Source of the DNA: Opitutus sp.
Lineage (GTDB): Bacteria > Verrucomicrobiota > Verrucomicrobiia > Opitutales > Opitutaceae
Direction: 5' to 3'
NCBI GenBank assembly: GCA_024998815.1
Contig: JACEUQ010000002.1
Span: forward strand, 572,501-636,500
Length of the DNA stretch: 64,000 nucleotides
Positions 3,907-60,135 of this stretch are shown piece after piece. The number at the start of each line of letters is the position of its first letter. Position 1 is the first letter of the stretch. The notes under the pieces were generated by a model. The model did no database searches, was not told the origin of the DNA, and saw only the letters and a list, made by a program, of their open reading frames with translations. The translations under genes and the position numbers were made by a program.

Positions 3907-8547
<4,641 letters not shown>

Positions 8548-19522: not shown

Positions 19523-21565
19523 GTGCTTCCGGATAACGCCAACATCGCCCGCCACCTCGCCCTCATGGCCGAGCGGCAACCCACCGTCGCCGCGCTAAAA
19601 GTTCCGCGTGGCCGCACCCGCACTGGCGACATCGACTACCTCACGCTATCCTTCAGCGAACTCGCCGCCGAAGTCGCCTCTTGGCAGGCCGATCTGACCA
19701 CCCGTGGCGTGCGCCCCGCCGACCGCGTTCTGGTAATGGTGCGCCCCGGATTGCCGCTGATAGCCGCGGCCTTCGCCCTGTTCAGCCTCGGCGCGGTGCC
19801 CATCGTGATCGACCCCGGCATGGGCCTGACAAGTTTTCTCGCCTGCGTCGCCCGCTCGCAACCGCGCGTTCTACTTGGCATCCCACTGGCGCGCGTCATC
19901 AGCCGGATTTACCGCAAAACCTTCAGCAGCGTCCAAATCCGCGTGCCCGCCAGCGGCTCCGCGACCGCCCGTAAAACTAGCGCCGGCTTCCTGTCTGCAT
20001 CGGGGCAAAGTAGCGCAGACTTCCAGTCTGCTCCGCTCCCAACCAGCAGGCTGGAAGCCTGCGCTACGCTCCAAACCGATCTGGCCGCCATTCTGTTCAC
20101 CTCCGGTTCGACCGGCGCGCCCAAGGGCGTGTGTTACACCCACGGCATGTTCGACGCCCAGGTGGAACTGATCCGCGCCACCTACGACATCCGCCCCGGC
20201 GAAATCGACCTGCCGCTGCTGCCGCTGTTCGCGCTGTTTAACCCCGCTCTCGGCATGACCACCGTGGTACCCGAGATCGACCCCAGCCGCCCGGCCACCG
20301 TCGACCCGCGTAAAATTATCCAGGCTATCCGCCAAGAGGGCGTCACCAGCTCGTTCGGCTCGCCCACGCTGTGGCGCAAAATTGCCGTCCACTGCCAGAC
20401 CCACCACGTCGAATTGCCCACGCTGAAACGCGTGCTTTGCGCCGGCGCACCCGTGCCGCCGGACCTTTGGGATTTGATGACTCCAGTGTTGCCCCACGGC
20501 ACACTGCACAGCCCGTACGGCGCGACCGAGGCGCTGCCCGTGAGCTCGATCAGCGCGGCTGAAGTCCACGCCGGCACGGCTGCGGCTACCGCACGCGGGG
20601 CGGGCACCTGTGTCGGCCGGCCCTTGGCAGCCAACCAAGTTAAAATCATCGCTCTAACCGACGTGCCCCTCGCCACGCTCGGCGATACCCGCGAACTACC
20701 CGCCGGCCAGATCGGTGAAATCATCGTGCGCGGCCCGACCGTCACCCAGACCTACGACGGCCTGCCGGAGGCCACCGCCGCCGCGAAGATCGGAGTCGGA
20801 CACCGTGGAAATCCCATTGGGCAAATCCCAAAGGCCGGACCCGATGAAGGCGAAATCCCCAATGGCCAAACTCCAAATCCCATTGGGCAAATCCCAAATG
20901 CAATTGGGCAAAACCCAAATCCCGACTACGCGGCAGCAGCGATTAAACCCCAAATCCCAAATGCCGATCCCGATGGCGGCGGAATTCCCAAAGGGATAAA
21001 ACCAACTACCAACTACACGGGCGTCGATGCCACCGGTGCTGCCGCAGCCGTCGGGATTTGTGATTTGGAATTTGGGATTTGCGCCCCGGTCGCCGGGGTT
21101 TTGCCGGCGTCGGCGGCGGTTGCCGCCGACGCCGGCTGGCACCGGATGGGCGATCTCGGTTATCTGGATGCCGAAGGCCGCCTCTGGTTTTGCGGACGCA
21201 AAGCCGAGCGCGTTGAAACGCCGGAAGGCCCGCTCTACACCGAGCAAATCGAGCCCCTGTTCAACGCCCACGCCAAAGTTCGCCGCTGCGCCCTTATCGG
21301 GATAGGTGAACGAGGCCGGCAGCGCGCCGCGCTGGTGGTTGAGCCCGACGACTGGTCGCAAGCCGAGACGAGCGATGAGTGCCGCCCCTTCGCCCGCGAA
21401 CTGCGCTTGCTCGCCAAGACCCACCCGCACACCGCGGGAATTAAGACCTTCTATTTCTTAAAAAAAATGCCGGTGGATGTGAGGCACAATGCCAAGATCC
21501 ACCGCCTCTCCCTGGCCCGCTGGGCGTTGACCGCCAAAGGCTACGAATCCGACCCCAAGCGATGA
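19523..21565 (+). CDS. oleC: OleC: AMP-dependent beta-lactone synthetase, with repeat-derived insertions
   Basis: This ANL-superfamily enzyme converts a 2-alkyl-3-hydroxyacid to a beta-lactone with ATP in head-to-head olefin synthesis. OleC-type motifs are strong: ILFTSGSTGAPKGVCYTHG, LPLLPLFALFNPALGMT, DPSRPATVDPRKI, SPYGATEALPVSS, HRMGDLGYLDAEGRLWFCGR and the C-terminal KIHRLSLARW. At 680 residues it is about 120 longer than the usual 540-560. The excess is explained by two repeat-derived segments: residues about 163-182 (SADFQSA...RLEACATL) and about 427-530 (repeated NPIGQIPN units, then VGICDLEFGICA). The second falls between TAAAKI and WHRMGD, adjacent in normal OleC. Start is GTG. It overlaps oleD by four bases. 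No oleA or oleB is in the window. Confidence 0.93.
   Translation: MLPDNANIARHLALMAERQPTVAALKVPRGRTRTGDIDYLTLSFSELAAEVASWQADLTTRGVRPADRVLVMVRPGLPLIAAAFALFSLGAVPIVIDPGMGLTSFLACVARSQPRVLLGIPLARVISRIYRKTFSSVQIRVPASGSATARKTSAGFLSASGQSSADFQSAPLPTSRLEACATLQTDLAAILFTSGSTGAPKGVCYTHGMFDAQVELIRATYDIRPGEIDLPLLPLFALFNPALGMTTVVPEIDPSRPATVDPRKIIQAIRQEGVTSSFGSPTLWRKIAVHCQTHHVELPTLKRVLCAGAPVPPDLWDLMTPVLPHGTLHSPYGATEALPVSSISAAEVHAGTAAATARGAGTCVGRPLAANQVKIIALTDVPLATLGDTRELPAGQIGEIIVRGPTVTQTYDGLPEATAAAKIGVGHRGNPIGQIPKAGPDEGEIPNGQTPNPIGQIPNAIGQNPNPDYAAAAIKPQIPNADPDGGGIPKGIKPTTNYTGVDATGAAAAVGICDLEFGICAPVAGVLPASAAVAADAGWHRMGDLGYLDAEGRLWFCGRKAERVETPEGPLYTEQIEPLFNAHAKVRRCALIGIGERGRQRAALVVEPDDWSQAETSDECRPFARELRLLAKTHPHTAGIKTFYFLKKMPVDVRHNAKIHRLSLARWALTAKGYESDPKR
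20010..20067. repeat. Inverted repeat inside oleC, translated in frame
   Basis: GTAGCGCAGACTTCCAGTCT at the left and CAGGCTGGAAGCCTGCGCTAC at about 20047-20067 form the arms of the element also found in intergenic DNA at 12081, 22732, 33203 and 43802. Here it encodes SSADFQSAPLPTSRLEACAT in OleC. Confidence 0.92.
20803..21090. repeat. Low-complexity ATTGGGCAAATCCCAAAT repeat cluster inside oleC
   Basis: Units of CCCATTGGGCAAATCCCAAA recur near 20812, 20878 and 20899. They continue as CCCCAAATCCCAAATGCC near 20947 and end with the inverted form GGGATTTGTGATTTGGAATT at about 21056. The cluster stays in frame and encodes about 100 residues rich in Pro, Asn, Gly and Ile. Confidence 0.88.
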
Positions 21566-22827: not shown

Positions 22828-22897
22828 CCTTGAGCTCACGCTCAAGGCCACATGATTCGCGAACACACTCCTTGTGCCCTTGAGCGTGAGCTCAAGG
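22828..22897. repeat. Paired GAGC hairpin element
   Basis: CCTTGAGCTCACGCTCAAGG and CCTTGAGCGTGAGCTCAAGG form the ends of a 70-bp inverted repeat; each arm is itself a hairpin with an 8-bp stem and a TCAC or GTGA loop. Same family as 25286, 45851, 50728 and 59747. Confidence 0.92.
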
Positions 22898-22972
22898 TCT
22901 GGAGTTTGGCCGTTTAGTAGAGTAGAGAGAGCCGCGCGTCGGTAACCCGTCAGCGCGACCCTCCCCCTCGTC

Positions 22973-23005
22973 AAACCGTGCAAGCGGTTTTCCCGCACAC
23001 GGCTT
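22973..23005 (-). ncRNA. Group II intron domain V
   Basis: On the minus strand, AAGCCGTGTGCGGGAAAACC followed by GCTTGCACGGTTT folds into the conserved catalytic hairpin, with an AGC-type catalytic triad near the 5' base and a GAAA loop. Confidence 0.85.
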
Positions 23006-23043
23006 ACCGAGTCCCCATTCTTTCGGTTTGGTTTCAGCGGAGT

Positions 23044-24786
23044 TCATTGCTTCCAAGCCGCCGTAAGCGGCCAGTGCCATAGTTTGTATTGACCATGCAA
23101 ACGGTCGTCGGTGAAGAACTCGAAGAGTCCGTGGGTGCGGCTATACTTTCGCCACAGCCACCGCCGCAACCGGTTGCGCACAAAAGCCTGCTGGTTACTA
23201 AACACGTGCGTGCTGTTGCCGTAATGAAACGCCGTCGCCCAACCGCGAGTGATTTGGTTGACCTTGCGGACCACCGCCACCGCCGGTTGGTTGCGCGTTC
23301 GCACATCTAGCTCCATCCGCACTTTGTCGCGTAACTTGGCCAGACTTTTCGCACTGGGTTCCACGTGCGGATACCTTCGTTTGCTCTTCATGCCTTGCCG
23401 CCATGCGACGGAAAAACCGAGGAACTCAAAGCCTTCCTTTCGTGTATCCACCAGTCGGGTTTTCTCTTCGTTGAGCTTTAACTTACGTGCCTCCAGCCAC
23501 CGTTTCAGTCGCGTTTGCAGCCCCGCCCCTTGACCCGGTTTGCACAGGATCAGGAGGTCGTCGGCGTAACGCACCATCGTCGGCTTTTGTTCGCACTTCT
23601 CATTCACCGCATGATCGAGGTCGTTGAGGTAGAGGTTCGCCAGCAGAGGCGATATAACTCCGCCTTGTGGCGTGCCACACCGGTTCGCGCTCACCTTGCG
23701 GCACCCCGTGTCCCGGTCCTCTTCCACGATGGGTGCGCGCAGCCACGTTTTTATTAAACGCAACACGCTCCCATCGCTCACCCGTTTGGCCACCAATTGC
23801 AGGAGTTCGCGGTGCGGGATCATATCGAAGTAGCTCGATAAATCCGCGTCCACCACCTCCACCTTTCCGCTCAGCATGGCTTCCTTGACCTTATCCATCG
23901 CCTGATGGGTCCGACGTTTCGGCCGGTAGGCGTAGGAATGGTCATGGAAGTCCGCCTCTAGGATTGGCTGCAACACGATCACCGCCGCGCTTTGCACCAC
24001 CCGGTCTTTCACCGTAGGGATGCCCAGCGCACGACGTTTGGTCCTGGCCTGATCCTTCCATATATAGACGCGCAGGACCGGACTGGGTCGGTAGGTTTTC
24101 GTTCGCATTTCCTCCGCCAGCGCAAGCAGCCATGCCGCCCGATAGGCTTCGTTCTTTGCGAGCGTTTCCACCTCGAACCCGTCCACTCCCGGCACGCCGT
24201 CATTGGCGATCACCTGATCGAGCGCATCCGACAGAATGTCCTGCCGATACAGCTCTCCATACAAACTATAGAACCGCCAATGCGGCTCCGCTTTTGCTTT
24301 CCGATATAGCACACGTTGCAGCTTCCGAACCTTCGGTGACGTTTTTATCCAGAGTTCATCACCCCAGCCATCGTCGGGTCCTTTGCCGCTCTGTGATGCG
24401 TGGGAACAAGTGCCCTCCCTTCGCTCCCCGGCGGTTTTAATGTCCGCTAGATCATCACTACTATGGAGGTCTCCGACTCCTGCCACGGCCCGTCCGGCCT
24501 TACGAGGTTTTGCCGCGCTTGTGCCGGTGGTTGAGGCATCGCAAGACGCCCCACCGCCGCAGGTCTCACCACTTAACCTAACGACCTTTCCCACCCCGCC
24601 GCCCCCGCTGACTCCGCCGACGTGTTGATCGGAAATCAACGATTTAGGTCCTACGTCTTTGCGAGACTGCCTTTTCCGATCCTTGCAGGCTTCACCGTTC
24701 AGGTAGCGGCTGGACTCGTCGGTTGTTTCGGTAACGGAGCTCATTGGATGGGGTTCACCTTCGTTGCGGCTGACTGGTTCGGGCAC
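23044..24786 (-). CDS. ltrA: Group II intron reverse transcriptase/maturase
   Basis: The frame covers 580 residues, but roughly the first 140 (Ser/Gly/Lys-rich, no domain) are probably intron RNA read as protein; the RT proper begins around LQRVLYRKAKAEPHWRFYSL. RT motifs are clear: GVPGVDGFEVE, RALGIPTVKDRVVQ, YAYRPKRRTHQA, DADLSSYFDMIPH, GTPQGGVISPLLANLYLND and the catalytic YADD (about residues 406-409), followed by LNEEKTRLVD and FLGF. The C-terminal maturase segment is present (NQITRGWATAFHYG). No HNH endonuclease follows, so mobility would rely on single-stranded or replication-linked targets. Motifs appear intact, so the element may be active. Confidence 0.92.
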   Translation of the reverse strand: MPEPVSRNEGEPHPMSSVTETTDESSRYLNGEACKDRKRQSRKDVGPKSLISDQHVGGVSGGGGVGKVVRLSGETCGGGASCDASTTGTSAAKPRKAGRAVAGVGDLHSSDDLADIKTAGERREGTCSHASQSGKGPDDGWGDELWIKTSPKVRKLQRVLYRKAKAEPHWRFYSLYGELYRQDILSDALDQVIANDGVPGVDGFEVETLAKNEAYRAAWLLALAEEMRTKTYRPSPVLRVYIWKDQARTKRRALGIPTVKDRVVQSAAVIVLQPILEADFHDHSYAYRPKRRTHQAMDKVKEAMLSGKVEVVDADLSSYFDMIPHRELLQLVAKRVSDGSVLRLIKTWLRAPIVEEDRDTGCRKVSANRCGTPQGGVISPLLANLYLNDLDHAVNEKCEQKPTMVRYADDLLILCKPGQGAGLQTRLKRWLEARKLKLNEEKTRLVDTRKEGFEFLGFSVAWRQGMKSKRRYPHVEPSAKSLAKLRDKVRMELDVRTRNQPAVAVVRKVNQITRGWATAFHYGNSTHVFSNQQAFVRNRLRRWLWRKYSRTHGLFEFFTDDRLHGQYKLWHWPLTAAWKQ

Positions 24787-25285: not shown

Positions 25286-25373
25286 CCTTGAACTCACGTT
25301 CAAGGCCACCCCACTTAAGGAAACACTCCCCCGTGAGAACACACTCCCGGTGGCCTTGAGCGTGAGCTCAAGG
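25286..25373. repeat. Paired GAGC hairpin element
   Basis: CCTTGAACTCACGTTCAAGG and CCTTGAGCGTGAGCTCAAGG bound an 88-bp inverted repeat between the intron and a convergent membrane-protein gene. The left hairpin has compensatory changes (GAAC/GTTC instead of GAGC/GCTC) that keep the stem paired. Confidence 0.9.
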
Positions 25374-30178: not shown

Positions 30179-30210
30179 CCCGGATCAACGTCCAACCCAC
30201 CGCAGTTGAC

Positions 30211-30335
30211 CTTCGTCATTGGACCCTCGTCATTGGACCCTCGTCATTGGACCTTCGTCATTGGTCATTGAACCTTGGACATTGGTCATTGGTCATTGGT
30301 CATTGGTCATTGGTCATTGGTCATTGGACATTGAC
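30211..30335. repeat. CATTGGTCATTGG short tandem repeat tract
   Basis: Repeats of CGTCATTGGACC are followed by GTCATTGGTCATTGGTCATT units over about 120 bases, then a CTCCTCC run. It lies immediately upstream of the YkgJ-like gene, so it may overlap its promoter. Confidence 0.9.
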
Positions 30336-43940: not shown

Positions 43941-44750
43941 ATGTTCACTTTCACCGATCGCACCTGGCTCTGGCTCGCCTCCGCGCTGTACCTGGCGGGC
44001 TTCGGGCTCGGCACCTTGGCGGTCCTGCGCGAACGTAAGCTCTCGCGGCTGTTGATGTACTTTATCATCGCCGCCGGTTTCACCGTACAAACCTTCGGGC
44101 TCTACCTGCGCGGCCTCGAAGTCAAAGGCTGTCCGTTGGGCAACACCTTCGAGCTGTTCCAGTTCATCGCCTGGTCAGCCATGGCGCTTTACCTGGTCAT
44201 CGGCACCACCTTTCGCTTCAGCCTGCTGGGCTATTTTACCTGCCTGCTGGGGGCCGCACTCACCGCACTCTCGCTTGCCTTCCCAGCCTGGGATGCCACC
44301 CGACGCATCGGCATTTTTGGCGGCAATGCGTGGATCGAATTCCACGCCGCCATCGCACTGCTGAGCTATGGCGTGTTCGCGCTGCTGTCGCTGACCGCCG
44401 CCATGTACGTGCTGCAGGTTTTCAGCCTCAAACGCCATCACCTCCACGGCCTGTTTTCCTTCCTGCCGTCGATTCGCGAACTCGACCACATTTGCCTGCG
44501 CCTGCTCGCGGCCGGCGCCGTTTTGCTCACCGCATCACTGCTCGTTGGGGCCGTTCATTGGAGCCAAGACTGGGCCTCGGTTAACGCCACTAAACTCGCC
44601 GTAACCGTGCTGATCTGGGCGGCCTACTCCACCGCACTTGGACTGCGTCTGCGCAGCCAGTTGGTCGGCAAGCGCCTCGCCTGGCTCCTGCTCGCCCTGT
44701 TCGGCCTGCTCCTGATTTCACTTCCGCTGGTCAGCGGCAGCGCCTCATGA
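43941..44750 (+). CDS. CcsA/HemX-type cytochrome c assembly or heme-pathway membrane protein
   Basis: A 269-residue protein with about eight membrane segments that matches the CcsA/CcmC/HemX family: RGLEVKGCPLGNTFELFQF (the PLxNxYE region), WIEFHAAIALLSYGVFAL (His in a transmembrane helix) and VGAVHWSQDWASVNATKL (Trp-rich periplasmic loop). Direct coupling to hemA, with stop and start overlapping as ATGA at 44747, matches the hemX-hemA arrangement; HemX affects HemA levels in other bacteria. A cytochrome c heme-delivery role is the alternative. No other cytochrome c assembly gene is nearby. Confidence 0.85.
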   Translation: MFTFTDRTWLWLASALYLAGFGLGTLAVLRERKLSRLLMYFIIAAGFTVQTFGLYLRGLEVKGCPLGNTFELFQFIAWSAMALYLVIGTTFRFSLLGYFTCLLGAALTALSLAFPAWDATRRIGIFGGNAWIEFHAAIALLSYGVFALLSLTAAMYVLQVFSLKRHHLHGLFSFLPSIRELDHICLRLLAAGAVLLTASLLVGAVHWSQDWASVNATKLAVTVLIWAAYSTALGLRLRSQLVGKRLAWLLLALFGLLLISLPLVSGSAS

Positions 44751-45769
44751 CGCCCCCCGTGCTTTTCCTTCTGGGCGCGAGTCATCGCACGACCCCGCTC
44801 GAGCTGCGCGAAAAACTCGCGCTAAGCCCCGAGCGGTTGCCGCTTTTTTACGCCGCCGCCGCCGCGCTCCCCGGCCTGCGCGAGTTCGCCGTGCTCAACA
44901 CCTGCAACCGCGTGGAGTTTTACGGCAGCGCCGACTCGCCCGCCGTTGTCCAAAACCTGCACGCCGTCTTCTGCGCTTTCCAGCAACTCCCCGCCGAGGT
45001 TTTCACCTCCATCAGCCACCAAGCCGCCGACTTGGCGGCGATCGAACACTTGCTGAGCGTCGCCTCGGGGCTGGATTCGCAGATGCTCGGCGAGACCGAG
45101 ATTTTAGGGCAAATCAAGACCGCCTACGCCACCGCCCAAAGCCGCAAAACCACCGGGCCGGTGCTCAACCGCCTGTTTCAAAAAATCTTTCAGCACGCCA
45201 AATACGTGCGTACCCACAGTGCAATTACCGAAGGTCAGATCAGCGTGGCCAACGTGGCCGTGGACCTAGCGCTGAAGATTTTTGGCGACCTGTCCAACAC
45301 CCGCATCCTGCTGCTGGGTGCGGGCGACATCGGTGAGAAAACCGCCAAAGCGTTCCAAAGCCGTGGGGCAGAATCGCTCACCATCGCCAGCCGTACACAC
45401 GGCCGGGCGATGGAGTTGGCTACCACCCTCAATGCCACCGCGTTGCCCTGGGAGCACGTGCCCACCCACCTCGGTGACTACTCCATTGTGGTTGGCTCGA
45501 CCTCAGCGCCCGATGTGGTGGTAACCGTCGCGCAAGCGGAGGCGGCGATGCGCAAGCGCCGCGCCGAACCGCTGTTCTTCATCGACCTGGCGCTGCCCCG
45601 CGACATCGACCCGGCGGTCACCGAATTGGACAACGTGTTCCTCTACAACCTCGACGACCTAGCTAAAATCGCCGACGAAAACCTCGCCGCTCGCACGGCC
45701 AAAGTGACGCATGCCCGCCAGCTGGTGGCTGAAAAAGCCTCGGCGCTCTGGACTCAGCTCGCGCCATAG
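44747..45769 (+). CDS. hemA: Glutamyl-tRNA reductase
   Basis: A 340-residue GluTR that reduces glutamyl-tRNA to glutamate-1-semialdehyde, the first committed step of C5 heme synthesis. LGASHRTTPLELREKL and the catalytic Cys in VLNTCNRVEFY mark the N-terminal domain. GLDSQMLGETEILGQIK and RTHSAITEGQISVANVAVDLA follow. LLLGAGDIGEKTAKAF is the NADPH-binding motif, with FIDLALPRDID after it. The protein ends soon after the spinal helix, so most of the C-terminal dimerisation domain of standard 410-430-residue enzymes is missing. Similar short forms occur in other PVC-group bacteria. Its stop is followed by the large tandem array. Confidence 0.95.
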   Translation: MTPPVLFLLGASHRTTPLELREKLALSPERLPLFYAAAAALPGLREFAVLNTCNRVEFYGSADSPAVVQNLHAVFCAFQQLPAEVFTSISHQAADLAAIEHLLSVASGLDSQMLGETEILGQIKTAYATAQSRKTTGPVLNRLFQKIFQHAKYVRTHSAITEGQISVANVAVDLALKIFGDLSNTRILLLGAGDIGEKTAKAFQSRGAESLTIASRTHGRAMELATTLNATALPWEHVPTHLGDYSIVVGSTSAPDVVVTVAQAEAAMRKRRAEPLFFIDLALPRDIDPAVTELDNVFLYNLDDLAKIADENLAARTAKVTHARQLVAEKASALWTQLAP

Positions 45770-45850: not shown

Positions 45851-46881
45851 GCTCAAGGTGGGGATGACGCCATTCCCTGAGCTCACGCTCAGGGCCACAT
45901 TCCGCTCTGCTTTGCAGCATGTCCGCGTGGCCTTGAGCGTGAGCTCAAGGTGAAGATGACGCCTTTTCCCTGAGCTCACGCTCAGGGCCACATTCCGCTC
46001 CGCTTTGCAGCATGTCCGCGTGGCCTTGAGCGTGAGCTCAAGGTGAAGATGACGCCTTTTCCCTGAGCTCACGCTCAGGGCCACATTCCGCTCCGCTTTG
46101 CAGCATGTTCCCGTGGCCTTGAGCGTGAGCTCAAGGTGAAGATGACGCCTTTTCCCTAAGCTCACGCTCAGGGCCACATTCCGCTCTGCTTTACAGCATG
46201 TCCGCGTGGCCTTGAGCGTGAGCTCAAGGTGAAGATGACGCCTTTTCCCTGAGCTCACGCTCAGGGCCACATTCCGCTCTGCTTTACAGCATGTCCGCGT
46301 GGCCTTGAGCGTGAGCTCAAGGTGAAGATGACGCCTTTTCCCTGAGCTCACGCTCAGGGCCACATTCCGCTCTGCTTTACAGCATGTCCGCGTGGCCTTG
46401 AGCGTGAGCTCAAGGTGAAGATGACGCCATTTCCCTAAGCTCACGCTCAGGGCCACATTCCGCTCTGCTTTACAGCATGTTCCCGTGGCCTTGAGCGTGA
46501 GCTCAAGGTGGGGATGACGCCTTTTCCCTAAGCTCACGCTCAGGGCCACATTCCGCTCTGCTTTGCAGCATGTCCGCGTGGCCTTGAGCGTGAGCTCAAG
46601 GTGAAGATGACGCCATTTCCCTAAGCTCACGCTCAGGGCCACATTCCGCTCTGCTTTGCAGCATGTCCGCGTGGCCTTGAGCGTGAGCTCAAGGTGAAGA
46701 TGACGCCATTTCCCTAAGCTCACGCTCAGGGCCACATTCCGCTCTGCTTTACAGCATGTTCCCGTGGCCTTGAGCGTGAGCTCAAGGTGAAGATGACGCC
46801 TTTTCCCTAAGCTCACGCTCAGGGCCACATTCCGCTCTTCTTTGCAGCATGTCCGCGTGGCCTTGAGCGTGAGCTCAAGGT
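45851..46881. repeat. Tandem array, eleven 93-bp units of paired GAGC hairpins
   Basis: Unit starts fall at 45859, 45951, 46044, 46137, 46230, 46323, 46416, 46509, 46602, 46695 and 46788, an exact 93-bp period except the first unit (92). Each unit carries CCCTGAGCTCACGCTCAGGG and CCTTGAGCGTGAGCTCAAGG about 31 bases apart. Each is a perfect 8-bp-stem hairpin, and the two can also pair with each other through 24-base arms. The loop of one is GTGA (GNRA-type in RNA), so each strand offers one such hairpin per unit. Variation among units is limited to a few positions (CTGAGC/CTAAGC, TTTGCAG/TTTACAG, TCCGC/TTCCC). It lies between the convergent hemA and a coiled-coil protein gene. The multiple-of-three period keeps frames open, but no protein is likely. 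Confidence 0.96.
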
Positions 46882-46957
46882 GTTTCCTTCAACGGTATCG
46901 CCCCCCCCCGCACCAACCGATTTCGTGATGCTCAACCTGCTGAAAGGATCGAGTTTC

Positions 46958-48340
46958 CTACTGGAGGCGCTGGGGGAGTTTGCGCAGGCGCTGGCTGAGG
47001 TCTTCCAGCGACTTGCCCGTCGGCCGGGCGGCAAGGTCTGCGCCGGTGCGAATCACCTGCGAGGGCAAAAAGTTGTTCACCAGCGCGCAATAATTGCTGG
47101 TCACCATGATCCCGAGTAGCTCGCCGGTCTTGCTCAAAACGAGGTCGCCGCGCGAGGATGAGAAATCGCCAAATAATTTCCGAACCAGCCGGTTATCCAT
47201 GTGCACGTAACTCGGATTGCTCGGATCGAGTTTGAAGGGAACCTCGCCATAACCGGTGCCCCCGTTGGCGATGATCAGCGCCTCGGTGAACTTAAACGGC
47301 TCCAGCGCGATCGGGTAACTCTTCACCCCAAGCGCCGTCATCTGCGCCGGGGTGACCGGCAAAACCGCCACGCGCGGGTCGATGGCCAAAAACACCAGGC
47401 GGTCCACCGCGATGCGTTGTGCTCCTTTGCGGAACTCGGCTTTGAGCGAGGCCCAGTTCCAGGGCGGGTCGATCAGGGAAAAGGGCGTGTCGCCCACGTG
47501 GAGCAACGCCACGGTGTCGCGGCCGTCGGTCACGAACACCGTGTTGGTATCGCGTTTGTCGGTGCGCGAGCTGAGCAAAAACGGGCGGGTACCTTCCAGC
47601 GCGGTTTGCACGCGGTTGGCCAAAAACTCGTTGAAGAGAACGTTGATGTTAATCGGCCGATTTTCGCGGATTTCCTTGGTCAGCGCCACTGAGCTGTCGG
47701 CGAGTTGGCCCACGCCTTGGGCGAGCTGGGTGGTGGTTTCCTGCACCTTGATGCGCTCCTGACGCTCGGCCTCGACCTGAGTTTTCAACGTTTCGGCGGT
47801 GGTGCGCAGGAGCTGTTTTTCCTGCTCCACGACGCGCACCGTCACACTGAGATCCTCGATCTTGGCGCGGGCTTCGGTCTGGGCCTTTTCGAGGGTGGCG
47901 AGCGCCTGGGACTGGCGCGCGGCCTCGGCCTGGCGTTGTTCCAAATCGCGTTGAAGCTGGGCGAGGCGCGCCTTGGAAATCGTGGCCTCGGCGGCGGCCG
48001 AGTTAACCTGCGCGGTGAGCGTTTCAGCTTTTTGACGGGTGGCGTCGAGGGAGCTGGCGGTGTCGGCGAGGGCTTTTTCACGCTCGCTCAGGGTGCTTTG
48101 GGTGGACTGGAGCTGCTGGGCAACCTGGTCGCGTTGGCTGCGTTCGTCGGCCAGCGAGAGCTTCATGACCGCGACGAGGTCGTCGTCCTGGGTGGCTGCG
48201 CCGTTGGCGGCACGCACGGCGGCGGCCGGCGGCGGAGGCGGCACGGGCTTGGCGGGCGGGGCGGCTTTCTGCCAGTCGGTGAGCGCGAGCAGCGTCAGCA
48301 ACAGGAAGTCGCAAAGGATGAGGAGGAGCGTGCGATTCAT
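46958..48340 (-). CDS. Membrane-anchored coiled-coil protein with C-terminal globular domain
   Basis: A 460-residue protein with an N-terminal membrane anchor (MNRTLLLILCDFLLLTLLAL), a Pro/Ala linker, a long coiled coil (residues about 60-215, Gln/Ala/Glu/Lys-rich heptads) and a globular C-terminal domain of about 230 residues. The latter contains VFVTDGRDTVALLHVGD and, near its end, SSSRGDLVLSKTGELLGIMV, which loosely recalls the end of trypsin-like domains but without a convincing catalytic triad. I do not recognise the family. It lies 18 bases downstream of a large membrane protein on the same strand, with which it probably forms a complex. Confidence 0.72.
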   Translation of the reverse strand: MNRTLLLILCDFLLLTLLALTDWQKAAPPAKPVPPPPPAAAVRAANGAATQDDDLVAVMKLSLADERSQRDQVAQQLQSTQSTLSEREKALADTASSLDATRQKAETLTAQVNSAAAEATISKARLAQLQRDLEQRQAEAARQSQALATLEKAQTEARAKIEDLSVTVRVVEQEKQLLRTTAETLKTQVEAERQERIKVQETTTQLAQGVGQLADSSVALTKEIRENRPININVLFNEFLANRVQTALEGTRPFLLSSRTDKRDTNTVFVTDGRDTVALLHVGDTPFSLIDPPWNWASLKAEFRKGAQRIAVDRLVFLAIDPRVAVLPVTPAQMTALGVKSYPIALEPFKFTEALIIANGGTGYGEVPFKLDPSNPSYVHMDNRLVRKLFGDFSSSRGDLVLSKTGELLGIMVTSNYCALVNNFLPSQVIRTGADLAARPTGKSLEDLSQRLRKLPQRLQ

Positions 48341-50727: not shown

Positions 50728-50827
50728 CCTTGAGCTCACGCTCAAGGCCACGGGGAGTGAGTTCGCGAAGCGGGTGTTAGTGGAAACGTGTGTTCGCAAA
50801 GCGGTGGCCTTGAGCGTGAGCTCAAGG
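50728..50827. repeat. Paired GAGC hairpin element
   Basis: CCTTGAGCTCACGCTCAAGG and CCTTGAGCGTGAGCTCAAGG bound a 100-bp inverted repeat with an unrelated centre (TTCGCGAAGCGGGTG region). Single-copy form of the unit arrayed at 45851. Confidence 0.93.
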
Positions 50828-59746: not shown

Positions 59747-60135
59747 CCTTGAGCTCACGCTCAAGGCCACATTCAAGAGCCACTCAAGGCCAAGCTCACG
59801 ACCACGCTCGTTTTGAACACACGCCTTGTGGCCTTGAGCTAACGCGCAAGTTGCCCTCCGTGGCCTTGAACGTGAGCTCAAGGTGTTTGCGCAAGAGAGC
59901 CACTCAAGGCCAAGCTCACGACCACGCTCGTTTTGAACACACGCCTTGTGGCCTTGAGCTAACGCGCAAGTTGCCCTCCGTGGCCTTGAGCGTGAGCTCA
60001 AGGTGTTTGCGCAAGAGAGCCACTCAAGGCCAAGCTCACGACCACGCTCGTTTTGAACACACGCCTTGTGGCCTTGAGCTAACGCGCAAGTTGCCCTCCG
60101 TGGCCTTGAGCGTGAGCTCAAGGTGTTTGCGCAAG
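59747..60135. repeat. Tandem array, three 120-bp units of the GAGC hairpin family
   Basis: A first CCTTGAGCTCACGCTCAAGG hairpin (59747-59766) is followed by units at 59776, 59896 and 60016, each 120 bp. They are identical except for the start of unit 1 and one A/G difference (TTGAACGTG versus TTGAGCGTG). Each ends in TGGCCTTGAGCGTGAGCTCA. The interior differs from the 93-bp array: here CCACTCAAGGCCAAGCTCAC and TTGTGGCCTTGAGCTAACGC recur. It lies between a peroxiredoxin gene and a convergent kinase-like gene, and fills this 436-bp gap. Confidence 0.95.

Follow-up and report, generated by a model that had tools for sequence, protein, structure and literature searches.

A tandem array of inverted REP pairs beside hemA in an Opitutus genome, and its likely cognate RAYT gene

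What is the long, regular run of hairpin repeats that separates hemA from a convergent reading frame in Opitutus sp. (assembly GCA_024998815.1), and how could it have arisen? We examined this question in the window, the whole 64,000-nucleotide stretch of contig JACEUQ010000002.1 that was analysed, and extended the comparison to the remainder of the genome and to related genomes. A first-pass annotation had described a tandem array of 11 units, each with two inverted hairpins, and this description is confirmed by TRF, by comparison of the units and by folding.

Structure and location of the array

TRF places the array at 45851-46882 with a period of 93, 11.1 copies, 96% matches and 0% indels. 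Units 2-11 are 93 nt each and unit 1 is 92 nt, so the period is exact, as first described, for ten of the eleven units. As also noted in the first-pass annotation, the units differ at few positions, namely nine substitution columns and one single-base gap, and adjacent units are not significantly more similar than distant ones (permutation p 0.14). Within each unit, a 28-bp inner spacer separates a minus-oriented REP from the plus-oriented REP that follows, and a 17-bp outer spacer completes the unit. The features of the locus are as follows.

44747..45769, + strand: hemA, glutamyl-tRNA reductase, left neighbour (GlutR_N and Shikimate_DH)
45851..46882, no strand assigned: tandem array read as a BIME, 11 units of 93 bp (unit 1, 92), from TRF and unit comparison
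45851..45860, + strand: left edge of the array, 10-bp GCTCAAGGTG, the 3' end of a plus REP followed by TG
45875..45898, - strand: first minus-oriented REP, GTGG-CCCTGAGC-GTGA-GCTCAGGG, 11 copies in 93-bp steps, the last at 46805
45927..45950, + strand: first plus-oriented REP, GTGG-CCTTGAGC-GTGA-GCTCAAGG, 11 copies in 93-bp steps, the last at 46857
46958..48340, - strand: convergent ORF, right neighbour, 460 aa, no Pfam match

The array hairpin, GTGG-CCYTGAGC-GTGA-GCTCARGG, combines a foot of the GTRG type with a palindrome of 8 bp that closes a GTGA loop. In the available text of PMC2817692 and PMC6006769, REPs are described as a palindrome headed by GT(A/G)G. Both hairpins, each with its 8-bp stem and GTGA loop and one readable per strand, are seen in every unit; GTGG precedes the hairpin on both strands, and some of the minus-oriented copies carry one stem change. 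The 22 REPs alternate strictly, minus then plus, at regular spacing, as in a BIME. The earlier emphasis on a GNRA-loop RNA becomes secondary, since loop, GTRG foot and palindrome together make up the usual REP anatomy. Folded alone, the single hairpins of a unit reach -13.2 and -15.6 kcal/mol (z about -4). A complete unit, whichever strand is folded, makes an extended arm containing both REPs (-45.4 and -47.4 kcal/mol, z about -5), in agreement with the proposal that transcripts of either strand can fold into long arms. A 20-mer of the hairpin has 35 matches in the window at up to three mismatches, compared with 0.01 expected from shuffles, which excludes a chance origin of the hairpin repeats; 22 of the 35 lie in the array.

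The same hairpin occurs at four more places in the window, which the first-pass annotation had not listed.

22828..22897, no strand assigned: single inverted REP pair, GTGG facing inward
25286..25373, no strand assigned: single inverted REP pair, one copy with the paired stem change CCTTGAAC/GTTCAAGG
50728..50827, no strand assigned: single inverted REP pair
59747..60135, no strand assigned: another array of this family, three copies at a period of 120, other spacers (TRF and hairpin scan)

Parts of a group II intron are located at 22917-24786, between the pairs at 22828-22897 and 25286-25373; they comprise an Rfam match at 22917-23007 and an RT-maturase ORF at 23044-24786 on the minus strand (RVT_1, GIIM). 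A REP may have been the target of this intron. The window also holds short tandem repeats, GTCATTG heptads and a 21-bp repeat inside a 680-aa ORF (30208-30333 and 20853-20923), and a second dispersed palindrome, TGTCACCTAWTAGGTGACA, with the following starts.

21646, 22339, 43286, 43352, 57044 and 63784: starts of TGTCACCTA (second palindrome) in the window

Four of these six window copies lie inside ORFs, where they encode CHLLGDT or CHLIGDT. The palindrome TGTCACCTAWTAGGTGACA has 53 exact copies in its own genome (control 0) and 2 to 16 copies in six of 12 other genomes of the genus, and is absent from 15 genomes outside the genus. It may be a mobile palindrome or a protein binding site; both are candidate readings.

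The array lies between two convergent genes, as had been recognized, with hemA on the plus strand and the ORF at 46958-48340 on the minus strand. To compare this locus among relatives, we searched 18 genomes for hemA; G012 was outside this set and G007 gave no match. Thirteen loci could be judged, nine from the same genus and four from the same order, and a 14th (L205) ends inside hemA. None of the 13 carries this REP on the 3' side of hemA (up to five mismatches, 1.5 kb past hemA), and the convergent ORF is missing within 1.5 kb in all of them. The ORF is also missing at 80 further named hemA loci, for which the length past hemA varies; a single three-mismatch match to the 20-mer is present at two of the 80, and none at the remainder. 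The prospect of uniform single-unit loci in all relatives, raised in the first-pass annotation, is therefore not borne out by the 13 loci.

The REP family and its other arrays

Across the genome (4.24 Mb, 3 contigs), the 24-mer REP pattern has 498 copies at up to two mismatches, 248 forward and 250 reverse, and its reversed-pattern control has 0 copies. In an even 400-kb sample at up to four mismatches, 55 copies were found compared with 0 in a Markov control. These are dispersed, since 15 of the 20 stretches of the sample hold copies, and 46 of the 55 lie within 150 bp of another; the grouping is 9 singles, 12 pairs, 3 triples, 2 quadruples and 1 quintuple. Regarding orientation, REP neighbours in the sample and window are inverted in 49 of 55 cases (31 '-+' with GTGG inward and 18 '+-'), the others being 4 '++' and 2 '--'. 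Of 229 copies, 210 have GTGG as the foot and 5 have GTAG; two copies enter this count twice because stretches overlap, and the search, at up to six mismatches to a GTGG-containing consensus, favours GTGG.

The stem has 8 bp, where at least seven are expected of a REP, closes a short loop of 4 nt and shows paired changes. Among 49 distinct sequences, both bases have changed with pairing kept in 18 cells, one base has changed with pairing kept in 22, and pairing is broken in 33; the corresponding means over 1000 shuffles are 5.6 (maximum 13), 29.1 and 51.3. A sister stem with the paired change GCGC for GAGC has at least 35 exact copies among the matches listed. The 8-mer REP arm, scanned for half-REPs as a sign of hairpin-loop breakage, is common by chance.

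To describe the genomic context, 61 REP clusters were classed by gene positions from a crude hexamer caller: 25 lie in convergent, 23 in co-directional and 5 in divergent regions, 3 overlap a gene, and 5 are located at the edge of a stretch. This set covers 692 kb in 37 stretches (the window, the sample and chosen stretches), 16 of which were picked for REPs or transposases, and a 5-kb overlap of L139 and L193 causes one cluster and two REP copies to be counted twice. Intergenic bases are 19% convergent and 27% divergent. The 24 clusters of the even sample alone divide into 8 convergent, 8 co-directional, 2 divergent, 3 genic and 3 edge clusters. REP copies mostly lie outside genes, and few are found between divergent ones.

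The array at hemA is one of several in this genome, each with its own period and spacers. Other periods are 88/87 (10 units), 169 (5), 120 (3), 190 (2-3), 139 (4 units and one REP, ending at the candidate RAYT gene described below), 114 (about 3.5) and 78 (about 2); the list is a minimum, drawn from about 16% of the genome. Direct, non-inverted arrays of single REPs were also observed, with six copies each, at L130:3329-3512 in 32-bp steps and at L137:8205-8483 in 51-bp steps. The first-pass remark that the period is a multiple of three is correct for 93 and does not extend to the family: periods of 51, 78, 114 and 120 agree, and those of 32, 88, 139, 169 and 190 do not. Among the 40 of 234 own-genome candidates that were scored, matches of 94-100% to the complete 93-bp unit are confined to the 11 units of the array itself, which points to local duplication of the pair with its neighbourhood. 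Full or near-full matches elsewhere among these 40 reach 74-76%, in the 88/87 array and at two other places, and the remaining ones cover two paired REPs or just one, in some cases together with spacer sequence.

A candidate cognate RAYT gene and its relatives

A search for a RAYT-type transposase elsewhere in the genome had been suggested, and one was found among the same REPs. Six places in the genome resemble Y1 at E 0.01, five of them above the Pfam cut-off, and the candidate is the weakest of the six.

G000:C1:1720214-1720756, outside the window: candidate RAYT gene, 180 aa, in stretch L130

In the coordinates of L130, the gene (7215-7757) is enclosed by inverted REPs at 7157 (-) and 7849 (+). 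These REPs, 34 bp downstream of the stop codon and 91 bp upstream of the start codon, belong to the array family, and the gene stands at one end of the array with the 139-bp period. The protein matches the NCBIfam model NF047646 (REP_Tyr_transpos) at E 2e-14 with 53.7 bits, below the 80-bit cut-off, and Pfam Y1_Tnp with 17.9 bits, below the 23-bit cut-off; all nine of the aligned RAYT homologues match NF047646 at E 0.001 or better. Searched against the PDB at E up to 10, the single sequence returns only the TnpArep structure 4er8 (4.9e-4), and a nine-row profile returns 4er8 at 9.3e-10 with the next best at 0.099. H69, H71, Y128 and N132, which include an HxH motif and Y128, are invariant in the nine aligned sequences, and we take the two histidines and the tyrosine to be the catalytic residues. 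Judged by sequence and position, the gene is likely the cognate RAYT of the array REP, with a predicted product of the Y1 HUH TnpAREP kind. Of the other Y1-like places, L125-L128 have no REP in their 12-kb stretches, and L129 shows a weak RAYT-like match (E 5.9e-5) in an 833-aa frame with REPs about 1.2 kb away.

We also compared the distribution of the REP with that of RAYT homologues. At up to two mismatches, the REP pattern occurs in 7 of 56 genomes, this one included. Within the genus, 55 copies are found in G007, 18 in G012, 14 in G003 and 5 in G001, and 0 in eight others; two other genera have one two-mismatch match each. No RAYT homologue was detected at E 0.001 in G007 or G012, both of which hold the REP, and the homologues in G003 and G001 reach only 36% and 31-35% identity, with no close one. 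The assemblies of these four genomes consist of 170 to 350 contigs, so the missing close RAYT may reflect a gap or a loss. A Y1 gene in G007 (L141) has no REP within 8 kb around it. In G007, an array at L142:2371-3112 contains minus REPs of the array family, and the plus partners have other stems, for example CTCTGCGC/GCGCAGGG.

Nine RAYT homologues of other genomes share 44-63% identity with the candidate. In a strict scan, GTRG palindromes lie within 400 bp on both sides of five of these nine, with different stems (shuffle mean 0.05-0.4 per locus). For the other four, the strict scan finds palindromes on one side of L152 and none at L147, L148 and L170; L147 has imperfect GTRG palindromes. 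Counting the own locus, six loci are flanked on both sides, and three of them have the GTGA loop. The cognate REP of the homologue in G022 was found 41 times in that genome and not in four others; its copies show many paired stem changes. In G013, whose homologue is the closest (63%), the REP type of that homologue occurs only eight times at up to two mismatches, three of these at the gene. Because copy numbers within the genus range from 0 (8 of 13 genomes) to 498 and the stems at the homologues differ, this group is suited to tests of RAYT/REP co-change and of array origin.

Interpretation and comparison with known systems

Taken together, we regard it as very probable that the array is a BIME, in which inverted REP pairs of a genome-wide family, presumably spread by a RAYT, were amplified locally in tandem. 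The comparison with BIMEs made in the first-pass annotation is correct by the features tested, with a RAYT among the same REPs. The genome has hundreds of REPs besides those of the array, together with a transposase gene that matches, so the array is essentially ordinary. Most likely, a mobile REP pair was amplified passively at a site, between two 3' ends, where it is tolerated. In this account, extragenic sites would have received REP pairs through the RAYT, or a relative of it, which would recognise the REP hairpin as single-stranded DNA. One REP pair with 17 bp of adjoining DNA would then have been duplicated in tandem by slippage or unequal exchange, the first time possibly via the 10-bp GCTCAAGGTG that is present at the left edge of the array and at each unit end, and repeated duplication would have led to 11 units. 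Located between the 3' ends of two genes, the array is probably tolerated, and by analogy any effect would be one of the REP roles reported elsewhere, mRNA 3'-end hairpins or gyrase sites. The transcription block, gyrase or nucleoid site and structured RNA named in the first-pass annotation are candidate roles. It is quite improbable that the RAYT/REP system of this lineage also drives local tandem amplification, through repeated copying of REP pairs and adjoining host DNA in place to give arrays of up to 11 units, as a second product beside dispersed transposition, with the array length tuning convergent or co-directional 3' ends.

Selection could alternatively keep the array as a two-way buffer between the convergent genes, in which each unit offers a stable hairpin on either strand that would stop read-through, protect both mRNA 3' ends or hold gyrase at the point of colliding transcription. 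Stable hairpins on both strands make an influence on RNA 3' ends plausible, and the convergent position is in line with such a role; E. coli BIME-2 attract gyrase and serve as its sites (PMC6379681, available text). Intergenic REP clusters are also convergent in 25 of 53 cases, compared with 19% of bases, and divergent in 5 of 53, compared with 27%; however, promoter avoidance alone would give the same bias. A terminator-like scan marks a single site in the array, at the last REP, fewer than the 1.6 that shuffles give on average. The REP and the neighbour ORF are missing on the 3' side of hemA in all 13 judgeable genomes, so nothing conserved depends on the array, and we consider selection for a buffer rather unlikely. 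Assembly error is highly improbable: long near-identical tandem repeats are error-prone, but the units differ and do not form simple blocks, the array lies inside a 1.68-Mb contig of a 3-contig assembly, and several other arrays have their own period and spacer.

The regular spacing of the palindromes recalls other palindromic repeats, such as CRISPR, attC or a small element moved by another transposase. However, the spacers within an array are identical, a RAYT lies among the same REP, and Rfam at gathering thresholds gives a single match over the window and none at the array, which makes this class extremely improbable; CRISPR is ruled out, as the spacers repeat along with the units. A reading frame of 389 aa stays open on the minus strand through the array, and the 93-bp period preserves it, as a repeat protein would require. 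Nevertheless, five of the nine substitution columns alter a residue in units 2-11, several sister arrays break the frame (32, 88, 139, 169 and 190), and the Pfam matches (two exceed the cut-off) sum weak repeats, with no single stretch passing alone. The probability of a repeat protein is close to negligible, and the ORF is unsupported as a gene, given its residue-changing columns and weak summed Pfam matches.

Amplification of REP pairs has counterparts in known systems, which we cite here from the parts of the papers that are available. E. coli BIME-2 share with the array alternating inverted REPs, several tandem units, an extragenic location and a genomic RAYT (PMC2817692), but have GTAG and a bulged stem (PMC8266576), whereas GTGG, a perfect 8-bp stem and a GTGA loop are found here. 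The ordered REPIN clusters of Pseudomonas fluorescens SBW25 likewise consist of tandem near-identical REP pairs with flanking DNA, one cluster lying beside each of three RAYTs, and two sets of twelve REPs are described (PMC3116915). These ordered clusters and twelve-REP sets speak against the first-pass statement that the array is far longer and more regular than BIMEs; in its favour, the largest ordered cluster in the available text contains four REPINs and one REP (PMC3116915), compared with 11 units (22 REPs) here. The BIME part of the first-pass interpretation thus stands, and its wording on length and regularity was overstated.

To our knowledge, REPs in Verrucomicrobia have been little studied, although this is an impression; Opitutus terrae belongs to the Opitutaceae. 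REPs were reported in Opitutus terrae in 2013, with REP dimers reiterated in tandem together with flanking DNA (PMC3733652, available text), so the REP and tandem-dimer type was already known from the same phylum. Its GTAG-17, -19 and -20 families resemble the present one in belonging to Verrucomicrobia and, for the majority of GTAG-20, in the GTGG foot (PMC3733652). Literature on RAYT and Verrucomicrobia led only to this paper, no publication on the very sequence of the array was found, and the main text of a 2025 REP survey, as available, contains no 'verrucomicrob', 'opitut' or 'tandem' (PMC12306157). The stem sequence, as far as could be checked, the likely cognate RAYT and the array length are new. 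The Group 3 TnpAREP systems of S. maltophilia are similar in having a foot, a perfect 8-bp palindrome and a tyrosine transposase; their REPs have a 3-nt loop and another sequence (PMC8266576, available text), whereas the loop here is a 4-nt GTGA. To these systems the present locus adds a well-defined REP family, a likely RAYT and a regular REP array longer than the published ones with which it was compared, as far as their available text describes them.
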